Source of the DNA: Actinomyces viscosus
Lineage (GTDB): Bacteria > Actinomycetota > Actinomycetes > Actinomycetales > Actinomycetaceae
NCBI RefSeq assembly: GCF_900637975.1
Contig: NZ_LR134477.1
Span: 3,224,001-3,288,000 of the forward strand
Length of the DNA stretch: 64,000 nucleotides
Reading direction: 5' to 3'
In this document: piece after piece, positions 24,677 through 41,854 of the stretch
Layout of the letters: each line of letters opens with the position of its first letter
How positions within the stretch are numbered: the first letter of the stretch is position 1
Program-made: the position numbers and the translations under genes
The notes under the pieces: generated by a model
What the model saw: only the letters and a program-made list of their open reading frames with translations
What the model was told of the DNA's origin: nothing
Database searches by the model: none

Positions 24677-27277
24677 ATGTTTGAACGCTTTACCGACCGC
24701 GCCCGACGCGTCGTCGTGCTTGCGCAGGACGAGGCGCGGGCCCTGAACCACAACTACATCGGCACCGAGCACCTCCTTCTCGGCCTCATTCACGAGGGCG
24801 AGGGAGTTGCCGCCAAGGCGCTGGAGTCCATGGACATCTCCCTGGAAGCCGTGCGCAGCCAGGTCATCGAGATCATCGGTGAGGGCCAGTCGGCCCCCAC
24901 CGGTCACATCCCCTTCACGCCGCGCGGCAAGAAGGTCTTCGAGCTGTCCATGCGCGAGGCCCTCCAGCTCGGCCACAACTACATCGGCACCGAGCACCTG
25001 CTGCTCGGCCTGCTGCGCGAGGGCGAGGGCGTGGCCGCCCAGGTCCTGACCAACCTCGGCGGCGACCTGTCCAGCGTGCGCCAGACCGTCATGCAGATGC
25101 TCTCGGGCTACGAGGGCAAGGAGACGGTCAACGCCGGCGGCCCCTCCAAGGAGGGCACGCCATCGGGCAGCGCCATCCTGGACCAGTTCGGCCGCAACCT
25201 CACCGCCGCCGCCCGCGAGGGCAAGCTCGACCCGGTCATCGGCCGCAAGAAGGAGATGGAGAGGGTCATGCAGGTCCTCTCCCGGCGCACCAAGAACAAC
25301 CCCGTCCTCATCGGGGAGCCGGGCGTGGGCAAGACCGCCGTCGTCGAGGGCCTGAGCCAGGCCATCGCCCACGGCGACGTCCCCGAGACCCTGCGCGACA
25401 AGCAGCTCTACTCCCTGGACATGGGCTCGCTCGTGGCCGGCTCGCGCTACCGCGGTGACTTCGAGGAGCGCCTCAAGAAGGTCCTCAAGGAGGTGCGCAC
25501 CCGCGGCGACATCGTCCTGTTCATCGACGAGATCCACACGCTCGTCGGTGCCGGCGCCGCCGAGGGGGCCGTCGACGCCGCCTCCATCCTCAAGCCCATG
25601 CTGGCGCGCGGCGAGCTCCAGACCATCGGTGCCACCACCCTGGAGGAGTACCGCAAGATCGAGAAGGACGCCGCCCTGGAGCGCCGCTTCCAGCCGGTGA
25701 CCGTCGACCAGCCCAGCATCGAGGAGACCATCGGCATCCTCACCGGCCTGCGCGACCGCTACGAGGCCTTCCACCGCATCGTCATCACCGACGAGGCCAT
25801 CGAGGCCGCCGCCAAGCTCGCCGACCGCTACATCAACGACCGCTTCCTGCCGGACAAGGCCATCGACCTGGTCGACGAGGCCGGCGCCCGCCTGCGCATC
25901 CGCCGCATGACGGCCCCGCCCGAGCTGCGCGAGATCGACGAGAAGATCGCCGAGGTCAAGCGGGAGAAGGAGTCCGCGATCGACGACCAGGACTTCGAGC
26001 GCGCCGCCTCCCTGCGCGACGACGAGCGCCGCCTGGCCGACGAGCGCGCCGCCAAGGAGAAGGCCTGGAAGTCCGGTGACCTCGACCAGGTCGCCGAGGT
26101 CGACGAGGCGCTCATCGCCGAGGTCCTGGCCATGTCCACCGGCATCCCGGTGGTCAAGCTGACCGAGGCCGAGTCCGCCAAGCTCCTCAACATGGAGTCC
26201 GAGCTCCACAAGCGCATCATCGGCCAGAACAAGGCCATCGAGGCCCTGTCGAAGTCGATCCGTCGCACCCGCGCCGGCCTGAAGGACCCCAAGCGACCCG
26301 GCGGCTCCTTCATCTTCGCCGGCCCCACCGGCGTCGGAAAGACCGAGCTGGCCAAGGCCCTGGCGGAGTTCCTCTTCGACGACGAGGACGCCCTCATCCA
26401 GCTCGACATGTCCGAGTTCGCCGAGAAGCACACGGTCTCGCGCCTCTTCGGGGCCCCTCCCGGCTACGTCGGCTACGACGAGGGCGGCCAGCTCACCGAG
26501 AAGGTGCGCCGTCGGCCCTTCTCCGTGGTCCTGTTCGACGAGGTCGAGAAGGCCCACCCGGACATCTTCAACTCGCTGCTGCAGATCCTGGAGGACGGAC
26601 ACCTCTCCGACGCCCAGGGCCGCGTGGTGGACTTCAAGAACACCGTCATCATCATGACGACCAACCTCGGCTCCAAGGACATCGGCAAGTCGGTGGCCAC
26701 CGGCTTCCAGTCCACCGAGTCCGGCGCCATGGACTACGAGGAGATGAAGTCCCACGTCAACCGCGAGCTCAAGCAGCAGTTCCGGCCCGAGTTCCTCAAC
26801 CGCGTCGACGACCTCATCGTCTTCCCGCAGCTGACCAAGGAGGAGGTGCGCCAGATCGTCGACCTCATGATCGCGCGCCTCGACAAGCGCCTGGCCGAGC
26901 AGCAGATGACGATCGAGCTGACCGACGCCGCCAAGGAGCTCCTGGCCGAGCGCGGCTTCGACCCGGTCCTCGGCGCCCGTCCGCTGCGTCGCGCCATCCA
27001 GCGCGACATCGAGGACGCCCTGAGCGAGAAGATCCTCTTCGGGGAGATCGAGCGGGGGCAGAAGGTCATCGTCGACGCCGAGGGCGAGTCCATCCTGGGC
27101 GAGTTCATCTTCCGCGGTGAGCCCTGGGAGCAGGGTGAGGCCGAGGTGGCCGCGCTGCGCGAGGCCGAGGAGGCCGCAGCCGGCGGTGGGGGAGGAGCCT
27201 CCGCCCCGATGCGCATCCCCTCGACGCCGATCAGTCGCGACGGCGGCGCCTCACCGGCCGCCGAGCCGGGGCACTGA
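24677..27277 (+). CDS. clpC: ATP-dependent Clp protease ATP-binding subunit ClpC
   Basis: 866 residues from the ATG after GAGGAGGAA. Two Clp N repeats ([18 protein letters not shown] and [18 protein letters not shown]), first AAA+ domain with GEPGVGKT, a middle region with a UVR-like helical segment, second AAA+ domain with GPTGVGKTE, Walker [13 protein letters not shown] and a C-terminal D2-small domain ([16 protein letters not shown]). It unfolds substrates for ClpP. The C-terminus is Gly/Ala-rich. A hairpin terminator follows. Confidence 0.97.
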
Positions 27278-27297
27278 GCTCCACTATCAGTCCCATA

Positions 27298-27333
27298 CGA
27301 TGGGCCGCAACCCGGGCGGGTTGCGGCCCATCG
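27298..27333 (+). terminator. clpC terminator hairpin
   Basis: A perfect 16-bp stem (27298-27313 with 27318-27333) and a 4-base GGGC loop, 21 bases after the clpC stop. No T-tract follows, as is common in high-GC bacteria. Confidence 0.8.
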
Positions 27334-27853
27334 TCGTCCGGGGCGAGGGCGGCGCCTCCCTGCGCCCGCCCCTGCACCCGCGCCTTGGTGCGAACCACAG
27401 TGAGGCCGGCGGTGCGCAGCTGTTCCGTCACCATATTTTTCCAGGTGGCGACCGTTTCGGTGCGTGGCCGGGCCTGGTGGATGGCCGCCGGGGATCGTGA
27501 ATAATGACAGGACTCGAAGGCGGGATCGTCACGGGATAAACAGATGAAGGTTTAATGGAGCCTGGGTACGCCAAGAGAATAAACTGAAAGTTCGGCTTGA
27601 CCGTCTCATGTGCGCCCTCTGCCGGATACAGTGGAGTGACGCTCCGGCGAAAGTCGTCCCTAGGACCTGGTCGGTCGGTGTCGTCGCTCCGCGCTGTGCG
27701 GGGCTGTCTTAACCGTCTCTGCCCGTTCTCGTCCGTTACTGTCCGTAGCTGTCTGCCCTCATTCAGGCTGCCGTTGCACTCCTCATCCACGGTTCTGAAT
27801 GCCCGGCTCGGATCGCCTGCGTGCGCTCACGCATCCTTGGTGCCACTACTCCC
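27334..27853 (+). other. 520-base gene-free stretch before the pel-like operon
   Basis: No coding frame here is convincing. The composition drops in GC around 27430-27600, where a promoter for the downstream trio is likely. I looked for a c-di-GMP riboswitch and did not recognise one. Confidence 0.5.
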
Positions 27854-29302
27854 ATGACCCAACTCAGATACGAACCGCGACATTTTCATCAGCACCGTTT
27901 CCCGCGCCTGCGGACCGCCAACGCTGCTGCGGCCCTGAGCGCCGTCGGCCTGGTCACGGCGGTGCTGTCCTGGATCGCCTGGCCGATGACCGGGACGATC
28001 GGCGTCCTGGTCGTCACCGTCCTCATCGGTCTGGGGCTCGTCACGGCGCCCCCCACCCGGGCGCTCAAGCGCGGTGGCATCGCCCCCGGGGCCCGCTGGC
28101 ACTGGGGGGCGGCCATGCTCCTGGGGATGTCCCCGGCGATCCTGCTGGGTCTGACCTTCCCCGTCGTCTCCCAGAAGATGGCCGCCAGCACCATCGACGG
28201 AACGGGCCTGCCGGTCATCGTCCTGAGCGTGTCGGTGGCAGTGCCCTGGCTCAGTCAGATCATCGGCACCCCCGTCTACCGGCTCCTGGGCGACTCGATC
28301 GGCCGCGGCCCGAGGGCCGTCCTGGAGCGCTACTGCTCCATCTGGCCGGCCCTGTTCCTGTGGGCGCTTCTCCCCACGGCGCTGGAGGTCCTCGTCATGG
28401 CCGCCGTGACCGGCTGGAACCTGCGCGTCATGGGGGTGCACATCGCCCTGCTCCTCCTGCACGTCGTCTTCGTCCAGTCGCTCATCGTCGCCGACGTCTC
28501 GGGCCGGCGCCGCCTGTGGTCGGTGGGCTGGCTCTTCTACGCGGTCGCCCTCATCGCCGAGCCCACCTGGTGGTACCTGCCCCCGCTGCTGGGCACCCTC
28601 AGCCAGGTCCTGTCCATGGGGCGGTCCCTGGGCAGGATCCTGCGCCCCCGGGGTGTGTCCACCGGCATCCTCATGCAGGACATGCTTCGAGGTGCGATCC
28701 TGGGGGGAGTGCTGTGGTCAGACAAGTTCTTCCTCTTCCTGGGTGCCGGTCGCGACTTCGACGTGGCACTGGTCTACCTGTGCCTCCAGCCCGCCGTCGT
28801 CGCCTACTGCTACTACTTCGCGGTCACCGCCCCGCGGGTCAACACCGAGATCGCCATGTTCCAGACGGTCCTCAAGCGCGAGGGAATGGCCAGCCTGCGT
28901 GACCGGGGGCGCACCCTGCGCCGCCTGCTGGACGCCAGCCTCATCCGTGCCTGCGTCGTGGGGGTTGCCGGCATCATCATCGTCATCTGCTCCATGGCGC
29001 TCATCGCCCCCGAGCAGGTGCCCCTGGTCCTCGAGGTGTGCCTCTCCTCGACCCTGTTCACGGTGCTGACCCTCCTGAGCTACGAGATCGACCACATCGG
29101 CGACTCGACCTCCGCCCTGCTCCTGTCCGGCATCCACGTGGCCGTCGCCGCGGCCCTGCTGCTGCGTGTGGCCGGCACGGGCGCCTACCTGCCGCTGGCC
29201 GGCGTCGACCTCGCGCTGTGCGCGCTGGGCCTGCTGCTCTACCGCAGGCGGTGGGCCGCGCCGGAGTACTCCTTCTTCTGGGGAAAGGCCATGTCCTGGT
29301 GA
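27854..29302 (+). CDS. PelG-like polysaccharide transporter
   Basis: 482 residues from the ATG at 27854 (a GTG at 27821 is also possible; neither has a good ribosome site). About twelve hydrophobic segments with the PelG layout: segments such as WSDKFFLFLGAGRDF, YYFAVTAPRVNTEIAMF and LTLLSYEIDHIGDSTSALLL resemble PelG (length ~456). PelG is the MOP-flippase-like inner-membrane partner of PelF in Pel polysaccharide export. Its stop overlaps the next GTG by four bases. Assigned from remembered family features; no search was run. Confidence 0.75.
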   Translation: MTQLRYEPRHFHQHRFPRLRTANAAAALSAVGLVTAVLSWIAWPMTGTIGVLVVTVLIGLGLVTAPPTRALKRGGIAPGARWHWGAAMLLGMSPAILLGLTFPVVSQKMAASTIDGTGLPVIVLSVSVAVPWLSQIIGTPVYRLLGDSIGRGPRAVLERYCSIWPALFLWALLPTALEVLVMAAVTGWNLRVMGVHIALLLLHVVFVQSLIVADVSGRRRLWSVGWLFYAVALIAEPTWWYLPPLLGTLSQVLSMGRSLGRILRPRGVSTGILMQDMLRGAILGGVLWSDKFFLFLGAGRDFDVALVYLCLQPAVVAYCYYFAVTAPRVNTEIAMFQTVLKREGMASLRDRGRTLRRLLDASLIRACVVGVAGIIIVICSMALIAPEQVPLVLEVCLSSTLFTVLTLLSYEIDHIGDSTSALLLSGIHVAVAAALLLRVAGTGAYLPLAGVDLALCALGLLLYRRRWAAPEYSFFWGKAMSW

Positions 29303-32115
29303 GCTCGTCGTCGTCCTTCCGCGCCCGGCTGGAGAGTCTTCCGCTGCGCTACTCGGCCCCAGCCGGCGGCTACGCCCCGATGCCCAGTCCCGACGACGCC
29401 CCCGGCATCGGCGACCGGGGCCAGGACTCCGGTCCCACGGTCAAGGTCGGCCCCGACGGCTACGGCGTCGTCGTCACCACCGGCGGGTCGAGCGCTCTGA
29501 GCGGCCCCTCGGGCCCCAGTGCCGCCAGCGCCCGGAGCGCGCCCGGTGCTCGTAGTGCTGCCAGCGCCCGGAGTGCGCGCAGTGCGCCCGGTGCCCGCAG
29601 TGCCGCCAGCGCGCCCGGTGCCCGCAGCGCCCCCGCTACTCCTAGTGCCGCCAGTGCCTCAGACGCGGCCGGAGCGCCCGATGGACACCGGGCCCGTCGC
29701 AGCCAGCACCTGGCGGAACCTCGCGGCGTGACAAGGGCGGTCGGCACGCCAGCCGCGGTCGACGCCGCGAGCTCCGAGCTCCCGGGGCGCACCGCCCCTC
29801 GCGACCTTCCGCCGGTGAGCGAGTCGGCAGCGACCCCCGAGGTCCCCGCGGCGCCGATCTACGGCGTCGTCCAGACCCCGGCTCCGGCCGGTTACGGAGT
29901 GGTCCAGCCGCGCCCCCGGTCCCCGGAGCCGGCCGCCCCCTCGGAGGGCGCCGAGGTCCTGGACTCCCCGATCTTCGGGACCATGCGCTCAGAGCCCGTG
30001 CCGGCCTCTCCGCCGGCCTCGGCAGGCTCCCCGGGATCGGCGGGATCCGTGGCCTCGCCGGAGCGGGCGGCCTTACCGGAGCGGGCGGCCGGGCCGGAGA
30101 CCCGGGCCGCGTCGTCGACGCCCGACGAGGGGGCCGACGAAAGCGTCCTGCCGTCGCCCGCCCCGGTGGCGCCCTTCCAGGAGACGGTGCTGGCCCCGGA
30201 GGCGCAGGCCCCCGTCGTCGGCCCGGACGGAGCCGGTATCCCCAGTGACTCTGTTGGCCCTGGTGTCCCCGGTGGCCCCGTCGGTACAGCGGGTGCGGCC
30301 GGTACCCAGGGCGCGGGAGGCGCGGGCTCACCGAGCCCCATGGCGCCCACCGCCATCGCCTGGGAGTCCGTGGCCTCGGCCGCCTCCGACGCCGCCGCGA
30401 TCCCGCTGTCCCAGCAGAACGCCGAGGCCGAGGAGGAGGCCCAGGCGGGCGCGGCCGAGCTCCTCCAGGTCCCCGAGGAGCCCGAGCCGGAACCGGACAC
30501 CCAGACCCTGCCCGACGGCGTCCCCGAGGACGGCGTCTACGTCGACGTCGACGTCGCCATCGTCATGGAGTCCACCTACCCCTACCTCAAGGGCGGGGTC
30601 TCCGCGGTGGTCCACGACATCATCACCGGCAACCCCGACCTGACCTTCGGCATCATCCACATCACCTGGGACTCCCACTCGGCGCTCAAGGACCTCTACG
30701 GCATGCCGGACAACGTCGCCTGGGTCCGGGTCCTCTACCTGTCCATGGAGGAGCACCAGGAGGACTTCCTGCGCGCCCGCCCGCGCGACCTGCGCATGAA
30801 CCGCCGCCAGCGCCGCGAGCTGTCCCGCCGCATCCTGGGCGCCCTGCTCGCCCTGGCCCAGGAGGGCCGCACCGAGCCGCTGTGGGAGATCATCAGCGAG
30901 GGCCTGAGCGCCTCGCGGCGCTACCCGGTCTGGGCGATCCTGGGGACGCGCGAGTTCATGGAGGCCTACCACGACATGATGCCGGACCTGGGGATGTCGA
31001 TGACCGACATCTTCTGGTGCCTGCGCGACTTCTTCTCCCTGGCCTACGCGGTCCTGGCCGAGCCGGTCCCGCGCGCCTCGGTGTACCACGCCCACACCAC
31101 CGGCTACGCCATGCTCCTGAGCGTCAACGCCGCCCGCGAGCACGGCACCCGGGTGCTGCTGACCGAGCACAACCTCTACGTGCGCGACACGGTCAACACC
31201 CTCCTGGAGCGCCGGATGGACCTCAACATCACCCTGCAGGACTACCGCACCTTCGACGTCACCGGGCGCGAGCGCATGTGGATGGCCTGGTGGCTGGAGA
31301 TGGGGCGCCTGTGCTACCCCTACGCCTACGCCTCCACCTACCTCTACCCGCGGGCCATCACCGAGGCCAACGAGCTCGGAGGCGACGCCGGTCGGGCCAT
31401 CGTCATCCCCAACGGCATCGTCACCGAGGAGTTCGACGCCTCCTATGCCGCCCGCCTGGCCGCCATCGAGGAGATCAAGAAGGAGGGCGCGGACAAGCAC
31501 CTGTGGAAGCTCGTGTACATCGCCCGCGTCGTGCCCATCAAGGGGCTGCTGGACATGATCGACTCGGTGCGCCTCATGGTGGACCGGGGGCTGAACATCC
31601 ACCTGGACGTGTGCGGGCCCACCGAGCACATGCCCTCCTACTTCGAGCAGTGCCTGACCCGCATCGTCGAGCAGGGCCTGGAGAGCGTCATCACCATCCG
31701 CGGCACCGTCAAGGTCCGCGAGCTCCTGCCCGAGTTCGACCTGTTCGTCCTGCCCAGCTACAACGAGGGCCTTCCCGTGGTCTCCCTGGAGACCATGGGG
31801 GCGGGCATCCCCACGGTGAGCACCGACGTCGGCGCCGTGCGCTCCGTCGTCGAGGACATGATCGTCACCGAGGACGGGCAGACCTGGGACGCCTGCGGCA
31901 TCATCATCGAGCCCGGCGACCCCGCCGTCATGGCGGACAAGGTCCAGGAGGTCATCAGCGACGTCGAGCTCTATGAGCGCCTGAGCCTCAACGCCCGTGG
32001 CCGCGTGGAGGCCGCCTACGACCTGGTCAAGGTCAACGCCTCCTACAACAAGATCTACCGTCAGGGCGGGGCCGGCGAGCAGGCCCGTCCGGAAACCGAC
32101 CAAGGAGGAGCATGA
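29299..32115 (+). CDS. PelF-like glycosyltransferase with long disordered N-terminus
   Basis: 938 residues from the GTG overlapping the PelG-like stop. Residues 1-410 are low-complexity Ala/Ser/Pro/Gly/Glu with repeats (ARSAPGARSAAS) and four short related motifs: DGYGVVVT, PIYGVVQTP, AGYGVVQPR and SPIFGTM. The GT4 domain starts about residue 415 (VDVDVAIVMESTYPYLKGGV), with TEHNLYVRD, VIPNGIV, YIARVVPIKGLLDMID and the nucleotide-sugar site LPSYNEGLPVVSLETMGAG. PelF uses a UDP-amino sugar to polymerise Pel in the cytoplasm. Usual PelF length is ~500, so the extension is exceptional. The next ATG overlaps its stop. Confidence 0.85.
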   Translation: MSSSSSFRARLESLPLRYSAPAGGYAPMPSPDDAPGIGDRGQDSGPTVKVGPDGYGVVVTTGGSSALSGPSGPSAASARSAPGARSAASARSARSAPGARSAASAPGARSAPATPSAASASDAAGAPDGHRARRSQHLAEPRGVTRAVGTPAAVDAASSELPGRTAPRDLPPVSESAATPEVPAAPIYGVVQTPAPAGYGVVQPRPRSPEPAAPSEGAEVLDSPIFGTMRSEPVPASPPASAGSPGSAGSVASPERAALPERAAGPETRAASSTPDEGADESVLPSPAPVAPFQETVLAPEAQAPVVGPDGAGIPSDSVGPGVPGGPVGTAGAAGTQGAGGAGSPSPMAPTAIAWESVASAASDAAAIPLSQQNAEAEEEAQAGAAELLQVPEEPEPEPDTQTLPDGVPEDGVYVDVDVAIVMESTYPYLKGGVSAVVHDIITGNPDLTFGIIHITWDSHSALKDLYGMPDNVAWVRVLYLSMEEHQEDFLRARPRDLRMNRRQRRELSRRILGALLALAQEGRTEPLWEIISEGLSASRRYPVWAILGTREFMEAYHDMMPDLGMSMTDIFWCLRDFFSLAYAVLAEPVPRASVYHAHTTGYAMLLSVNAAREHGTRVLLTEHNLYVRDTVNTLLERRMDLNITLQDYRTFDVTGRERMWMAWWLEMGRLCYPYAYASTYLYPRAITEANELGGDAGRAIVIPNGIVTEEFDASYAARLAAIEEIKKEGADKHLWKLVYIARVVPIKGLLDMIDSVRLMVDRGLNIHLDVCGPTEHMPSYFEQCLTRIVEQGLESVITIRGTVKVRELLPEFDLFVLPSYNEGLPVVSLETMGAGIPTVSTDVGAVRSVVEDMIVTEDGQTWDACGIIIEPGDPAVMADKVQEVISDVELYERLSLNARGRVEAAYDLVKVNASYNKIYRQGGAGEQARPETDQGGA

Positions 32116-33233
32116 GGAGCAGCACCGGCGGCGTCGGAGCCTGGATCCGTTACGGCAACCCGCTCGAGCCCGGGGAGCTGGACTTCGCGATCGCCCACTA
32201 CCGGGCCGCGATCCTCCAGCCCTGGGAGACCGAGGCCGCCGCCCGCCTCAAGGAGGCGCGCCCGGACATGACGGTCCTGGCCTACCGGTGCCTGTCCTCC
32301 ACGCGCGACTTCGAGCCGGACTCCATGCGCGCCTCCGGGCTGTCCTACCGCGAGGCCCGCCGCCGCGGCTGGCTCGCCAAGCGCGACAACGGGGACCTGG
32401 TGGAGTGGAGCACCTACCCCGGCCACTTCCAGGCCCGCGTGTGGGACCCCGACTACCGCCGCCGCTGGGTCGAGGAGGTCTGCCAGGCCACCGCCGGCAC
32501 CGCCTTCGACGGCATCATGGCGGACAACGACGTCTTCGACGACTACTACGACCTGGACTTCCCGCTGGAGGGCATCGCCGACGCCGCCGCCCTGCGCGCC
32601 GAGCTGAACACCTTCGTCGACCAGGTCGGCGCCGGGCTCAACAGCGTCGGCAAGATCCTCATCCCCAACGTGGCCGAGGCCCGCCGCGAGCCCGGTCGCT
32701 GGGACCGCCACTCCGCCTGGGGCGGCGGCTTCGACGAGTGCTGGCTGGGCTGGGGGGATGACCACCTCTTCGACGAGGCCACCGCCCTGGCCCAGATCCA
32801 TGAGCTGCGCGGCCCCGGCCTGTCCATCGTGCGCACGCCCGACGGCGGGGGCGGCGGCACCGGCACCCGGGGCGATGGCGCTACCCGCCTCCCCTACGGC
32901 CTCTACGGGCTGGCGGCCTTCTGGGTCTTCGGAGGAGGGGAGGGCGCCTACGCGGCCACCGGCCACGACGACTACTCGCGCACCCCCTGGTTCCCGGCCC
33001 TCGACGCGGACCTGGGGCGGCCGCTCGGGCGGCCCCAGCGCCGCTCGGGGGCCTGGGTTCGCGAGTTCGAGGGGGGCCTGGCCGCCGTCGTCCTGAGCGG
33101 CGAGGGGCAGGCCGGGCTGGAGCTGCCCGCGGGCCTGGTCCTGCCCGGCCCCACCGGCGCGCCCGACGGCGAGCCGCTGCCCACCCGCGTCACCCTGCCG
33201 GGCCACTTCGGCCTCATCGCCCTGCGCCCCTGA
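32112..33233 (+). CDS. Putative glycoside hydrolase (GHL15-like), cytoplasmic
   Basis: 373 residues; AAGGAGGAGC precedes an ATG overlapping the PelF-like stop. It resembles the hypothetical glycosyl hydrolase family 15 TIM-barrel proteins: WIRYGNPLEPGELDFA, LAYRCLSSTRDF, WDPDYRRRWVEEV and an acidic active-site-like strand FDGIMADNDVFDDYYD (about residues 131-146). There is no signal peptide or membrane segment, so it should stay inside the cell. A role in trimming or quality control of the nascent polymer is inference. Confidence 0.7.
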   Translation: MRSSTGGVGAWIRYGNPLEPGELDFAIAHYRAAILQPWETEAAARLKEARPDMTVLAYRCLSSTRDFEPDSMRASGLSYREARRRGWLAKRDNGDLVEWSTYPGHFQARVWDPDYRRRWVEEVCQATAGTAFDGIMADNDVFDDYYDLDFPLEGIADAAALRAELNTFVDQVGAGLNSVGKILIPNVAEARREPGRWDRHSAWGGGFDECWLGWGDDHLFDEATALAQIHELRGPGLSIVRTPDGGGGGTGTRGDGATRLPYGLYGLAAFWVFGGGEGAYAATGHDDYSRTPWFPALDADLGRPLGRPQRRSGAWVREFEGGLAAVVLSGEGQAGLELPAGLVLPGPTGAPDGEPLPTRVTLPGHFGLIALRP

Positions 33234-33269
33234 GTGGCGCCGGCGCCGGCTCCCGTCAACAGCTGGCGA

Positions 33270-33380
33270 TACTGCACGAGGTCCGGGGTCTACTGGCTGG
33301 GACTCGGGTGTACTCCACGAGGGTCCGGACCTCGTGGAGTGAGGACATCCCCTGGCCATTGGCACCCGTGCGGGCCCTTC
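33270..33380. repeat. Family-A palindromic element, copy 1
   Basis: Begins TACTGCACGAGGTCCGG; an internal inverted pair GTACTCCACGAGG and GGACCTCGTGGAGT follows. The right end has decayed. Related copies are at 36365, 59339 and 63818. It fills most of the gap before ppdK. Confidence 0.75.
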
Positions 33381-33513
33381 GGGCCGGGGCCGGCCGTGTT
33401 CGCGGCTGGGCGAGCCGATTTCGATATGGGACCGAGGTCACATAGAGTGGCCTTCGTGCGCCTGCGCGTGCACGGAGTCCCTAGTAGTTCCACAAGAACC
33501 GAAAGAGGCAAGG

Positions 33514-36219
33514 ATGCCCAAGTACGTGTACCGCTTCAGCGAGGGTGACAAGGACCAGAAGGACCTCCTGGGCGGCAAGGGAGCGAACCTGGCGGAGATG
33601 ACCCGCCTCGGCCTGCCCGTTCCCCCCGGCTTCACCATCACCACCGACGCCTGCCGCGCCTACCTGGCCGACGGCGAGGTCCCCGACGAGCTCGCCGTCC
33701 AGGTCACCACCGCTCTTCGCGGCGTGGAGGAGGAACTGGGGCGCGAGCTGGGCGCCGCCGAGGATCCGCTGCTCGTCTCGGTGCGCTCCGGCGCCAAGTT
33801 CTCCATGCCCGGCATGATGGAGACCGTCCTCAACATCGGCCTCAACGACGCCTCCGTGAAGGGCCTGGCCGCCACCAGCGGCGACGAGCGCTTCGCCTGG
33901 GACTCCTACCGCCGGCTCATCCAGATGTTTGGCAAGACCGTCCTGGACATCGACGGCGAGCACTTCTCCGACGCCCTGGACGCCAAGAAGGCCGAGCGCG
34001 GCGTGAGCCTCGACTACGAGCTGGACGTGGACGCGCTCACCGAGCTCGTCGAGCAGTACAAGGCGATCGTGCGCGAGCAGGCCGGCATCGACTTCCCCCA
34101 GGACCCGCGCGCCCAGCTCGACATGGCCACCGAGGCCGTCTTCCGCTCCTGGAACACCGAGCGCGCCCACATCTACCGCCGCCGCGAGAAGATCCCCCAC
34201 GACCTGGGCACGGCCGTCAACGTGTGCACCATGGTCTTCGGCAACATGGGGGAGACCTCCGGCACCGGCGTGTGCTTCACCCGGGACCCCTCCACCGGGC
34301 GCACCGGCGTCTACGGCGACTACCTCGTCAACGCCCAGGGCGAGGACGTCGTCGCCGGCATCCGCAACACCCTGTCCCTGGCCGACCTCGAGCGCCTGGA
34401 CAAGAGCTCCTACGACGAGCTGCGCTCCATCATGCGGCGCCTGGAGACCCACTACCGCGACCTGTGCGACATCGAGTTCACCATCGAGCGCGGCAGGCTG
34501 TGGATGCTCCAGACCCGCGTGGGCAAGCGCACCGCCGCGGCCGCCTTCCGCGTGGCCACCCAGCTCGTCGACGAGAAGCTCATCACCATGGACGAGGCCC
34601 TCACGCGCGTCTCCGGCGAGCAGCTCACCCAGCTGATGTTCCCCCAGTTCGACGACGAGTCCGCCCGCGACCTGCTCACCCGGGCCATGCCCGCCTCCCC
34701 GGGCGCCGCCGTGGGCTACATCGCCTTCGACAACGAGGAGGCCGTCGCCCGCTCCGAGAAGGGCGACCAGGTCATCCTCGTGCGCCGCGAGACCAACCCC
34801 GACGACCTGCCCGGCATGGTGGCGGCCGCCGGCGTGCTCACGGCCCGCGGCGGCAAGACCAGCCACGCCGCTGTCGTCGCCCGCGGCATGGGCAAGACCT
34901 GCGTGTGCGGCGCCGAGGCCCTGGAGGTCGACGCCGCCGGTAAGACCCTGCGCGTGGCCGGCCGCGACGAGGTCTTCACCAGTGATGACATCATCGCCAT
35001 CGACGGCACCACCGGCGAGGTCTTCCTCGGCCAGGTCGACGTCGTCGACTCCCCGGTCATGACCTACCTGCGCCGCGGCCTGGCCGAGGCCCTCGACGTG
35101 GCCGGCGACGTCGACACCCGCGAGCTCGTCACCTCCGTGGACCGCCTCATGCGCCACGCGGACAAGGTCCGCCGCCTTGAGGTGCGCGCCAACGCCGACA
35201 CCCCCGACGACGCCCGCCACGCCATCCACCGCGGCGCCCAGGGCGTGGGCCTGTGCCGCACCGAGCACATGTTCCTGGGCGAGCGCAAGCAGTTCGTCCA
35301 GAATCTCATCCTGGCCGCCTCCGACGCCGAGCGCGAGGCCGCCCTGGCGGCCCTCCTGCCGCTGCAGAAGGGCGACTTCATCCAGATGTTCGAGACGATG
35401 AACGGCAAGCCCATGACGGTGCGCCTCATCGACCCGCCGCTGCACGAGTTCCTCCCGGACCTGACCGAGCTGAGCGTCAAGGTGGCCGTGGACCGTGAGC
35501 GCGGTGAGCTGGACCCGGCCGATGAGGAGCTCCTGGCCGTGGTGCGCAAGAACCACGAGTCCAATCCGATGCTCGGCCTGCGCGGGGCCCGCCTGCTGCT
35601 GACCATGCCGGGCCTCATCGAGCTGCAGGTGCGCGCCATTGCCGAGGCCGCTGTCGAGCGGCTCAAGGTCGGCGGCGACCCGCACCCGGAGATCATGATC
35701 CCGCTCATCGGCTCGGTGCGTGAGCTTCAGCTGGCGCGCGAGCGCGTGGAGCAGGTGCTGCGGGAGGTCTCCGAGGCCTCCGGCTACACGCTCGACTTCC
35801 CGGTGGGCTGCATGATCGAGCTGCCGCGCGCGGCCGTCACCGCCGCCCACATCGCCGAGGAGGCCGACTTCTTCTCCTTCGGCACCAACGACCTGACCCA
35901 GACCACCTGGGGCTTCTCGCGCGACGACGTCGAGGGCTCCTTCGTGGGCCGCTACATCGACGACGGCATCTTCGGCATCTCCCCCTTCGAGACCATCGAC
36001 GACCACGGCGTGGGCGGCATGGTGCGCCTGGGCGTGGAGCGCGGCCGCTCCACCAAGCCGGAGATGAAGATGGGCGTGTGCGGTGAGCACGGCGGGGACC
36101 CCGAGTCCATCGTCTTCTTCCACCGCGTGGGCCTGGACTACGTGTCCTGCTCGCCCTTCCGGGTGCCGGTGGCCCGCCTGGAGGCCGGGCGCGTCGCCGT
36201 CGAGGACAAGGGCGAGTAA
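33514..36219 (+). CDS. ppdK: Pyruvate, phosphate dikinase
   Basis: 901 residues, normal PPDK length. It interconverts pyruvate + ATP + Pi and phosphoenolpyruvate + AMP + PPi. The N-terminal nucleotide domain begins LLGGKGANLAEMTRLGLPVPPGF; the swivelling domain has the catalytic His in GGKTSHAAVVARGMG; the C-terminal PEP domain has GTNDLTQTTWGF and the conserved Cys in GVCGEHGGDP. A single gene, with a hairpin terminator and family-A elements on both sides. Confidence 0.97.
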   Translation: MPKYVYRFSEGDKDQKDLLGGKGANLAEMTRLGLPVPPGFTITTDACRAYLADGEVPDELAVQVTTALRGVEEELGRELGAAEDPLLVSVRSGAKFSMPGMMETVLNIGLNDASVKGLAATSGDERFAWDSYRRLIQMFGKTVLDIDGEHFSDALDAKKAERGVSLDYELDVDALTELVEQYKAIVREQAGIDFPQDPRAQLDMATEAVFRSWNTERAHIYRRREKIPHDLGTAVNVCTMVFGNMGETSGTGVCFTRDPSTGRTGVYGDYLVNAQGEDVVAGIRNTLSLADLERLDKSSYDELRSIMRRLETHYRDLCDIEFTIERGRLWMLQTRVGKRTAAAAFRVATQLVDEKLITMDEALTRVSGEQLTQLMFPQFDDESARDLLTRAMPASPGAAVGYIAFDNEEAVARSEKGDQVILVRRETNPDDLPGMVAAAGVLTARGGKTSHAAVVARGMGKTCVCGAEALEVDAAGKTLRVAGRDEVFTSDDIIAIDGTTGEVFLGQVDVVDSPVMTYLRRGLAEALDVAGDVDTRELVTSVDRLMRHADKVRRLEVRANADTPDDARHAIHRGAQGVGLCRTEHMFLGERKQFVQNLILAASDAEREAALAALLPLQKGDFIQMFETMNGKPMTVRLIDPPLHEFLPDLTELSVKVAVDRERGELDPADEELLAVVRKNHESNPMLGLRGARLLLTMPGLIELQVRAIAEAAVERLKVGGDPHPEIMIPLIGSVRELQLARERVEQVLREVSEASGYTLDFPVGCMIELPRAAVTAAHIAEEADFFSFGTNDLTQTTWGFSRDDVEGSFVGRYIDDGIFGISPFETIDDHGVGGMVRLGVERGRSTKPEMKMGVCGEHGGDPESIVFFHRVGLDYVSCSPFRVPVARLEAGRVAVEDKGE

Positions 36220-39292: not shown

Positions 39293-39571
39293 CCCATGAG
39301 ACCGGTCTCTCTAAGAATCAGGGATAACCCTGAGAGAAAACCTCGATATGCGCGTATGGCGGCGGTTTTCTCACTGTTCGGGAGCCGATGCGGCGGCCCG
39401 GCGGCCCGCCCTTCGTTGCCATGATGAGATACGCTGCCGTGTGCTGGCGGTCGTGACAGGATGGCTGGGCACTGCGTTTGTGGGCGACTCGACTGTGAGC
39501 TGCCCACGCGTGCGCCCGACTGTGCTGGAGGCCATCGCGGAGCAGGACGACGAGGAAAGGCGGCCCCATCC

Positions 39572-41854
39572 ATGGCCATGTACGAGCTCGACGGCAACCA
39601 CCTCCTGCCCGTGCGCCTGGGACGCTCCGCTGATGCCATCACCCTGTCCCACAGCCTGGTCGCCATCCAGCGTCAGATCGTCGACGTTCTGCGCCGTCCG
39701 CTCTTCCCCCTGGCCTGGGACGAGATCGACGGCGGAGCGAGCCTGACCGCCCTGGACGCCACCGGGCAGGTCGTCGTCGTCGAGGTCCTGGAGAGTGTTG
39801 ACTCCGCGGGGCTGCTGGCCGCCATGTCGCGCCTGACGCAGGCCGCCGCCGCCGGCCGCCGTGAGATCGCCAGCAGGTACGTCGGTGGGCTGGGGGCCTT
39901 CAGCGAGGACTGGAACGAGTTCCGCGAGGCCATGCCCGCTCAGGTCGAGGCCGGGCCTCGGCTGACGATCCTGAGCGCCTCCCTGGAGCCCGACGTCGTC
40001 GGGGGACTGGGCGTGCTGGCCTCCTCCGGGCTGGAGATCCACGAGGTGGACGTGCGCATCGTGGATGAGTCCCGCATCGTCGTCGTCGTGGAGAAGATCT
40101 CCGGGCTGGACGTGGCCGCCGGAGGGCCGCTGCTCGTGGCCCGTGCGCCCCGCCCGGCGCTTGCCGGTTCTACGGCGTCCGCGGCCGGCTCGCGGGCCAT
40201 CGACGTCTCCGAGCAGGCCGCGCAGGCGAGCCCGGTGACCGGCCCCATCGAGATCGTCATGCCGCAGGAGGATCCCGGAGACGGCGACGCCGCCGGGGAG
40301 GCTGCCGGTGGCGGTATTCCCGCGGGTGCCTTCGCCGCGTCGGGCGCTGCCGACGCGCTCTCCGAGCTGTTCGAGCCGGTGGCCGTGACCGCCGAGCAGC
40401 CCCAGGTGCACGCCCAGGCGGGTCAGGACCAGGCCGAGGACCGGTCCGAGGACCCCAAGGACCCCGACGACCCGGCCGGGCACGAGGACGGGGACAGGGC
40501 CGGGATTGCGGCCGATGAACCGGCTGATGACGCCTCGTCCGCCCCCGCTGAGGGATCGGCCCAGGACACCGCCGGTGGTACCGGGAGCGACCCTGCCGGC
40601 GAGGCCGCCAGCGAGGCCTCCGCCGACCTTCCCGGAACAGACGAGCATGCCGCGCGGACCTCCGCCGGCGCCGCCGAGTCCCACGACGACGCCCCCGCCT
40701 CCGCGGCGGACTCCCGCGGAGCCGGCCATGAGCGCGCAGACCGCAGCGACAGTGACGGCGGCGCCGACGAGCAGCCCGGCACCGGCAGTGTCGGCCGGGA
40801 CCTGGCCGACATCCTGAGCGGGGACTCCCTGACCGGCCCCGTCACCGTCGACCTGGGTGACGAGCCGAATGCAGACGACTCCGGCCGCGAAGGGACCGGC
40901 AGCGGCGTCGGCACCGGTGCCGGAGAGGGACAGGGCACCGGCGATCCGAGCCGCACAGACCACTCAGACCACACAGACCACTCAGACCGCACAGACCACT
41001 CAGACCGCACAGACCGTGCCGACCACACCGGCCGCGGCGACCATACGGACCAGGGCGATGGCATCAGCGCCGAGGCTCACGCCGTCGCCGCCCTGGCCGG
41101 AGGCGTGGACATCCTCGGGGGAAGCGCCCTGTCGGCCGGGAGCGGCTCGACTGCCCCCGCCGGTTCAGCACTCCCGAATGCGCCGCGCGGCGCCGCCTCC
41201 AACAGCGCCCCCGGTGCCGGGCAGGGCCCCGAGTTCTCGTCCTCCTCCGAGCCCTCCGGTGCCCCGCACGACGTCGACTCCCGCACCCGCAGGGGGCGGC
41301 GCTCGCGGGCGACGCAGTCCCGCGAGCAGGAGAGTGCCGCCGCGTCGCCGACGTCTCACGCCGCGACGTCGCCGGCCGCCTCGGGCGTCCCCGAGACTGG
41401 TGAGCACTCGGCTCAGGCCGCCGAGGCCTGGTCCACCGTGGCCCCCAACGAGGCCCGCCCGGAGGAGCCCACCGGCGCAGTGCCCCTGGTATCCTGGGAG
41501 CCGCTGCGGGGGTCGGCCGACGCGCTCGACCCGGTGGCCGAGGCCCTGGGCGGGGACCCGTCGAAGTCCCTCGTGGTCCAGGAGACCGCGGAGCTGGCTG
41601 CGGTCGCCGCCTCGCTGGGGGAGTCCACCCAGCTCATCTGGCAGCGGCTGCGCCGGGGCATCTACCACGAGGCGACCCTGTCGGTGGAGGGTGTCATCAC
41701 CCTGTCCGACGGGCGCTCCTTCACCGACCCGACCTCGGCCGCCAACGCCGCCCAGGACGTCAGCGACGCCGACGGCTGGCGCGTGTGGCGCGTCGGGGTG
41801 CGCGGCGCCCACCTGGGGGACCTGCGCGACGACCTCGCCGACCGCAGCTCCTGA
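39572..41854 (+). CDS. Endonuclease-like N-terminus plus RAMA-like C-terminus, unknown function
   Basis: 760 residues from the ATG at 39572 (GAGGAAAGG upstream). Residues about 1-200 form a compact domain; ASLTALDATGQVVVVEVLE recalls the D...ExK strand pair of PD-(D/E)XK nucleases, but the usual Lys is replaced. Residues about 200-660 are low-complexity, acidic and repetitive, including a run of His/Asp/Ser/Thr repeats (DHTDHSDRTDHS). The last ~90 residues (IWQRLRRGIYHEATLSVEG; DGRSFTDPTSAANAA; DGWRVWRV) match the RAMA domain found with restriction and methylase enzymes. Possibly a DNA-binding protein; function not established. Confidence 0.75.
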   Translation: MAMYELDGNHLLPVRLGRSADAITLSHSLVAIQRQIVDVLRRPLFPLAWDEIDGGASLTALDATGQVVVVEVLESVDSAGLLAAMSRLTQAAAAGRREIASRYVGGLGAFSEDWNEFREAMPAQVEAGPRLTILSASLEPDVVGGLGVLASSGLEIHEVDVRIVDESRIVVVVEKISGLDVAAGGPLLVARAPRPALAGSTASAAGSRAIDVSEQAAQASPVTGPIEIVMPQEDPGDGDAAGEAAGGGIPAGAFAASGAADALSELFEPVAVTAEQPQVHAQAGQDQAEDRSEDPKDPDDPAGHEDGDRAGIAADEPADDASSAPAEGSAQDTAGGTGSDPAGEAASEASADLPGTDEHAARTSAGAAESHDDAPASAADSRGAGHERADRSDSDGGADEQPGTGSVGRDLADILSGDSLTGPVTVDLGDEPNADDSGREGTGSGVGTGAGEGQGTGDPSRTDHSDHTDHSDRTDHSDRTDRADHTGRGDHTDQGDGISAEAHAVAALAGGVDILGGSALSAGSGSTAPAGSALPNAPRGAASNSAPGAGQGPEFSSSSEPSGAPHDVDSRTRRGRRSRATQSREQESAAASPTSHAATSPAASGVPETGEHSAQAAEAWSTVAPNEARPEEPTGAVPLVSWEPLRGSADALDPVAEALGGDPSKSLVVQETAELAAVAASLGESTQLIWQRLRRGIYHEATLSVEGVITLSDGRSFTDPTSAANAAQDVSDADGWRVWRVGVRGAHLGDLRDDLADRSS

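Follow-up and report, generated by a model that had tools for sequence, protein, structure and literature searches.

Can a Pel-like exopolysaccharide be made by a synthase and a transporter whose only constant partner is a hydrolase with no visible signal peptide? The question is raised by three adjoining genes (the trio) in a stretch of 64,000 nucleotides from Actinomyces viscosus (assembly GCF_900637975.1, contig NZ_LR134477.1, positions 3,224,001 to 3,288,000 of the forward strand). We call this whole stretch the window and number its positions from its first letter. A first-pass annotation, made from the sequence without database searches, had read the trio as a reduced Pel-like locus of a Gram-positive bacterium. 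The genes are:

27854..29302, + strand: PelG-like MOP-fold membrane transporter (482 aa; start ATG 27854, stop TGA 29302)
29299..32115, + strand: PelF-type GT4 glycosyltransferase (938 aa; start GTG 29299, stop TGA 32115)
32112..33233, + strand: GHL15 (PF14885) TIM-barrel glycoside hydrolase (373 aa; start ATG 32112, stop 33233)

The available text of PMC9135694 describes Pel as a polymer of alpha-1,4-linked galactosamine (GalN) and N-acetylgalactosamine (GalNAc). Our preferred reading, to which we give about an even chance, is that the trio is an actinobacterial, PelA-less, Pel-like synthase-dependent exopolysaccharide module, in which a cytoplasmic GHL15 endo-alpha-glycanase cuts the same chain. 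The open reading frames (ORFs) and both junctions were confirmed. The PelG-like and PelF genes share four bases (GTGA), as do the PelF and GHL15 genes (ATGA), and the trio stands as the single unit first proposed.

Two peptide patterns of GHL15, GGFDECW and GAWIRYG[NGD], served to collect relatives, which are hence close ones. One or the other pattern was matched by 110 stretches, of which 47 encode a relative; these come from 45 loci. PelF was adjacent to GHL15 in 45/45 loci and PelG in 44/45, the single miss (L021) being a 4.5-kb contig. Apart from one record labelled Vibrio cholerae, these loci belong to 12 actinobacterial genera (Actinomyces, Arthrobacter, Pseudarthrobacter, Kocuria, Rothia, Nostocoides, Arsenicicoccus, Kineococcus, Actinoplanes, Winogradskya, Jidongwangia and Pengzhenrongella), a spread that speaks against a local reduction in Actinomyces. 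The order was PelG-PelF-GHL15 in 38 loci, divergent in 4, convergent in 1 and GHL15-PelG-PelF in 1, and the remaining locus lies at a contig end. Since PelF and GHL15 overlap by exactly four bases in 36 of the 40 same-strand relatives, this overlap occurs more often than chance. The pairwise distances of the PelG-like, PelF and GHL15 proteins correlated with r 0.97-0.98 over 946-990 pairs, values that are inflated by shared ancestry.

Conservation of the trio across Actinomyces, as suggested earlier, was borne out. GHL15 was found in 31 of 49 species genomes of the genus and PelF in 29, all within the 31. By the positions listed, both genes lie on the same contig in all 29; the other two genomes (G526 and G549) have GHL15 alone. 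In a family sample of 121 genomes, GHL15 was detected in 6 and PelF in the same 6, all from the genus of the window (6 of its 7), and neither was detected in the 114 genomes of other genera. A phylum sample of 396 genomes gave PelF in 28, canonical PelG in 13 (7 over the cut-off), GHL15 in 8, and PelF together with GHL15 in 2. The Thermotoga maritima control genome matched DUF3492 (PelF), PelG, GH114 and, weakly, GHL15.

Three further records were observed during this survey. A locus labelled Vibrio cholerae strain 35D (L036) carries an actinobacterial-type trio (PelF 58% and GHL15 50% identical to those of the window) and also a neighbor family otherwise seen in Arthrobacter; it is probably a mislabelled or contaminated contig. 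In Rothia aeria (L061) and Pseudarthrobacter sp. Fe7 (L060), the trio genes match in pieces and in different frames, which suggests decay or sequencing errors.

The PelF assignment held. The protein matched NCBIfam NF038011 with E 4.1e-66 and 224 bits (residues 418-920, model 1-489), against a cut-off of 100 that is loose, two PelF-like proteins outside the trio passing as well. Pfam PF11997 (DUF3492) was matched with E 3.9e-39 and 135.5 bits, together with GT4 domains. The EX7E motif consists of E823 and E831, and both glutamates are present in 45/45 relatives. DUF3492 and GT4 follow a low-complexity N-terminal extension of ~410 residues. This extension (29299-30540) is rich in Ala, Ser and Pro, and the stop-to-stop frames of PelF range from 538 to 1279 codons across the genus.

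The GHL15 assignment was also upheld. PF14885 was matched over model positions 1-270 of 271 (E 2.3e-41, 143 bits, cut-off 27), and the predicted structure combines a TIM barrel and a beta domain at the C-terminus (predicted local distance difference test 87.9, 27 sequences). In this model, D138 sits at the end of strand 4 and E209 at the end of strand 6; a profile alignment pairs D138 with the Asp of the GH168 motif. The nucleophile of MeGH168 is given as Asp167 in the available text of PMC12210190; by profile alignment and residue numbering, D138 is taken to be its equivalent. E209 would act as the acid/base, judging from its place at the end of strand 6. W38, E39, R65, E68, D138, D140, N186, E189, E209 and W211 are invariant in 45/45 loci, D138 and E209 at up to 57% divergence; E209 lies in one of the two search patterns and D138 does not, and conservation at pattern positions is partly selected. 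The invariant carboxylates argue for kept catalysis in GHL15.

In all 45 loci, the GAW motif of the first strand has a GHL15 start codon within the 14 codons ahead of it; therefore no signal peptide is visible in this survey of start codons. The direct reading is that GHL15 would be cytoplasmic, and non-classical export is also possible. An earlier in-frame start exists in 13 loci. In the other 32, the frame contains no start farther than 14 codons ahead of the first strand, and a secreted GHL15 with a mis-called start is disfavored on that ground. A second copy of the C-terminal part only, in a 154-codon frame, was observed in two Actinomyces genomes (L008, G112:C28:46871-47047; and G536:C1:2580913-2581089).

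The clustering of neighbors at the 45 loci started from 712 ORFs that had passed a filter on codon-position GC; families in at least 3 loci were kept, which gave 48 clusters. With the trio, clpC, ppdK and an LPG-synthase gene set aside, 30 of 42 clusters were scanned against Pfam with at least one representative each; the other 12 are small ones (median <220 aa). No match to PelD, GGDEF, GH114 or deacetylase domains was detected in the 30 scanned recurrent families, and apart from PelF and PelG, no gene but GHL15 is constant at the loci. Two further families are common to several genera, namely a sugar epimerase (13/45 loci) and DUF4832/DUF4874 proteins (14/45). Three epimerases were scanned; that of L037 passes the galE model, that of L055 falls below the galE cut-off and that of L059 is a Pfam epimerase. 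Three DUF4832 members were also scanned, and the one in L055 starts, by eye, with a signal-like stretch. The available text of PMC7112168 lists galE and DUF4832 as accessory genes of Gram-positive pel loci.

Other neighbors are restricted to parts of the sample. In some Actinomyces loci (L020, L023, L024, L028, L047, L054, L057 and L058), the genes after GHL15 encode an MFS transporter and a universal-stress protein. Just downstream of GHL15, five Arthrobacter-type loci encode a protein of ~500 residues that matches no Pfam family (L032:8899-10632 and relatives in L031, L033, L036 and L038), of which the L033 member has a signal-like N-terminus by eye. No support was obtained for this protein (cluster 22) as a DUF4832 relative.

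GGDEF, GH114 and PelD domains were searched in the genome of the window, which is complete in one contig of 3,491,241 bases. The GGDEF scan proposed with the first-pass annotation detected no match to PF00990 in the whole 3.49-Mb genome, with a control positive in 8/14 genomes. Likewise, GH114 (PF03537) had no match, with a control positive in 3/14 genomes. The search for PelD_GGDEF (PF16963) also gave no match, and its control was equally silent, so no absence is claimed. Regulation independent of cyclic di-GMP (c-di-GMP), raised earlier for the arrangement as a whole, would apply to this genome alone. A six-frame scan of the 45 loci for the GGDEF motif gave 11 matches, of which that in Pengzhenrongella (L059) was confirmed by Pfam and the others were judged by eye. 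The former (L059:310-1836) is a GAF-GGDEF diguanylate cyclase directly upstream of PelG and the only confirmed one near the 45 loci. Because this gene adjoins PelG, c-di-GMP input may operate in some relatives that bear the trio.

In the preferred reading, PelF, as a retaining GT4 enzyme, would polymerize an alpha-linked chain, perhaps of the galactosamine type, in the cytoplasm from a UDP-sugar, and the PelG-like MOP protein would carry it across the single membrane. GHL15, in the same compartment and on the same message as PelF, would cut the chain as an endo-alpha-glycanase. Such cutting could set the chain length or clear stalled polymer, an editor role. We count in favor of this reading the constant linkage that survives rearrangement, the distance correlation, the sugar-supply genes, the carboxylates, the fold neighbors and the EX7E motif. 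A more far-reaching version, which we put forward tentatively and with some doubt, is that the trio defines a distinct actinobacterial synthase class. The cytoplasmic endo-alpha-glycanase would then be an obligate third component that sizes or edits the chain before export by a divergent PelG; PelA would be absent and so, in Actinomyces at least, would c-di-GMP input.

Two sets of results, on the transporter and on the fold of the hydrolase, weigh against a Pel-like polymer. The first-pass name PelG failed on the Pfam profile; the PelG-like protein matched no Pfam or NCBIfam family at E<=1 in hmmscan, and PF16933, the Pfam PelG family, had no match across the whole genome. No solved structure was related to it in sequence at E<=1. 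Its predicted fold is polytopic and of the MOP type, with ~14 membrane-length helices in the model. A profile comparison by hhalign, made against PelG alone among MOP profiles, gave a weak match (E 0.0018, probability 15%, 330 columns); a shallower PelG alignment gave a probability of only 1.9%, and a forced global alignment gave nothing. The score was reached by none of the 148 answered block shuffles (of 150), nor by the reversed profile. Rotated profiles keep the local match (32/60 reach the score) and hence are no control. Position, predicted fold and this profile match point weakly to the name PelG for the product of 27854..29302.

As for the hydrolase, VIA-align of the GHL15 model gave 24.9 with 9f9v, an unassigned planctomycete protein, and 22.2-24.8 with GH168-labelled entries. 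Lower values were obtained with the GH191 alpha-galactosaminidase (20.3-21.0), GH114 Ega3 (18.4) and the GH166 domain of PelA (17.8). The match over the full length, including the C-terminal beta domain, is to GH168-type enzymes; for the galactosaminidases, the alignment stops near residue 300. A PDB profile search returned the same group, and a search with the single sequence found nothing. The earlier idea of a cytoplasmic hydrolase replacing PelA survives in part: no signal peptide is visible and the barrel resembles the PelA hydrolase domain, but GH168-type enzymes match better.

Because GH168-type barrels are the best fold match, the polymer is possibly a non-Pel glycan. The same module would then make another alpha-glycan (fucose-, galactose- or glucose-based, say), with GHL15 as a GH168-like glycanase for it, and the epimerase could equally supply UDP-galactose. 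We regard this as unlikely, though worth serious attention. It is opposed by the PelF relatives: among the PelF-like proteins of 13 other loci, the two best matches to PelF of the window (L122, 31% identity, E 1e-51; L125, 26%, E 1e-37) are those beside a canonical PelG. DUF4832 and galE are, moreover, typical pel neighbors.

The part played by GHL15 might instead be structural or regulatory: standing in for PelD and PelE, it would keep cytoplasmic PelF at the transporter, with catalysis secondary or lost. Its place as the sole further constant gene, its strict four-base coupling to PelF and the lack of a Pel domain match in the other scanned neighbor families (0/30) agree with such a scaffold. 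The candidate catalytic carboxylates, which are invariant throughout the 45 loci, do not, and we consider a scaffold role improbable.

It is very improbable that the trio is left over from, or partly duplicates, a full pel set at another place in the genome. No favorable evidence was found, and against it stand a single match each to PF11997 and PF14885 in the complete genome, none to PF16933, GGDEF or GH114, and frames that are open, conserved and flanked in same-genus stretches by clpC upstream (5/5) and ppdK downstream (4/5, the fifth stretch ending early).

The surroundings of the preferred module in the window were also analyzed. The trio lies between clpC and ppdK, and one feature was found ahead of it:

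27297..27334, + strand: hairpin of 17 pairs, 3' of clpC (stop 27277); probable terminator between clpC and the trio

The segment 27285-27345 folds with -44.4 kcal/mol (z -6.5), and none of 200 shuffles was equally good. The hairpin has no T run after it and is unlisted by the terminator scan; as a probable terminator, it would separate clpC from the trio. Over 27250-33600, that scan gave two terminator-like sites, a number close to chance expectation; both are on the minus strand. A scan of the same interval for sigma-70-like promoters found none. An annotation artefact is ruled out for the trio by the open frames and the synteny after clpC in the five same-genus stretches, and no relative was confirmed among viral contigs as a sign of viral origin. 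Elsewhere in the window, 39461-41854 encodes a protein of 797 residues that has a RAMA domain at its C-terminus; its long middle part is acidic and of low complexity.

If the preferred reading is true, oral and soil actinobacteria have a definable and testable matrix polysaccharide locus, and it becomes a new question why a polymer-cutting enzyme shares the membrane side of the polymerase. As a naturally minimal PelF/PelG pair, the trio could also be used to study the contributions of PelD and PelE.

Finally, we compared the trio with known systems. Like the Gram-positive pelDEADAFG operon (Bacillus cereus ATCC 10987; bifidobacteria, streptococci and clostridia), it has PelF beside a PelG-type transporter, and part of its relatives likewise carry epimerase and DUF4832 genes. 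Unlike that operon, the trio loci have no recognized PelD or PelA in the 30 neighbor families scanned (no PelE profile was used), the hydrolase belongs to GHL15 and has no visible signal peptide, and the transporter lies outside Pfam PelG. PelA acts after inner-membrane transport in the available text of PMC12022489, whereas GHL15 would meet the chain before it. In the aligned part, GHL15 shares 11-14% identity with the GH166 domain of PelA and with GH191/GH114 endo-alpha-galactosaminidases; the GH168 endo-1,3-fucanases (Fun168A, Fun168D, Fun168E and MeGH168) have a TIM barrel with an Asp aligned to D138. The MOP flippases WzxE, MurJ and MATE are 6-12% identical to the PelG-like protein, which partners a PelF synthase. 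Gram-positive pel loci, including some in which just pelF and pelG were detected, have been published before, with Actinobacteria and Rubrobacteria among the holders (PMC7112168, PMC7112194). The reduced loci share the PelF and PelG pair with the trio, and the available text on them describes no linked GHL15. No title or abstract in our literature search described a PelF-GHL15 pair or a linked hydrolase; supplements and most subscription papers lie outside its scope. The arrangement first called new appears to be new in one respect: Gram-positive loci with pelF and pelG only, and Actinobacteria as holders, were known, and the addition is a putatively cytoplasmic GHL15 linked to PelF and PelG.
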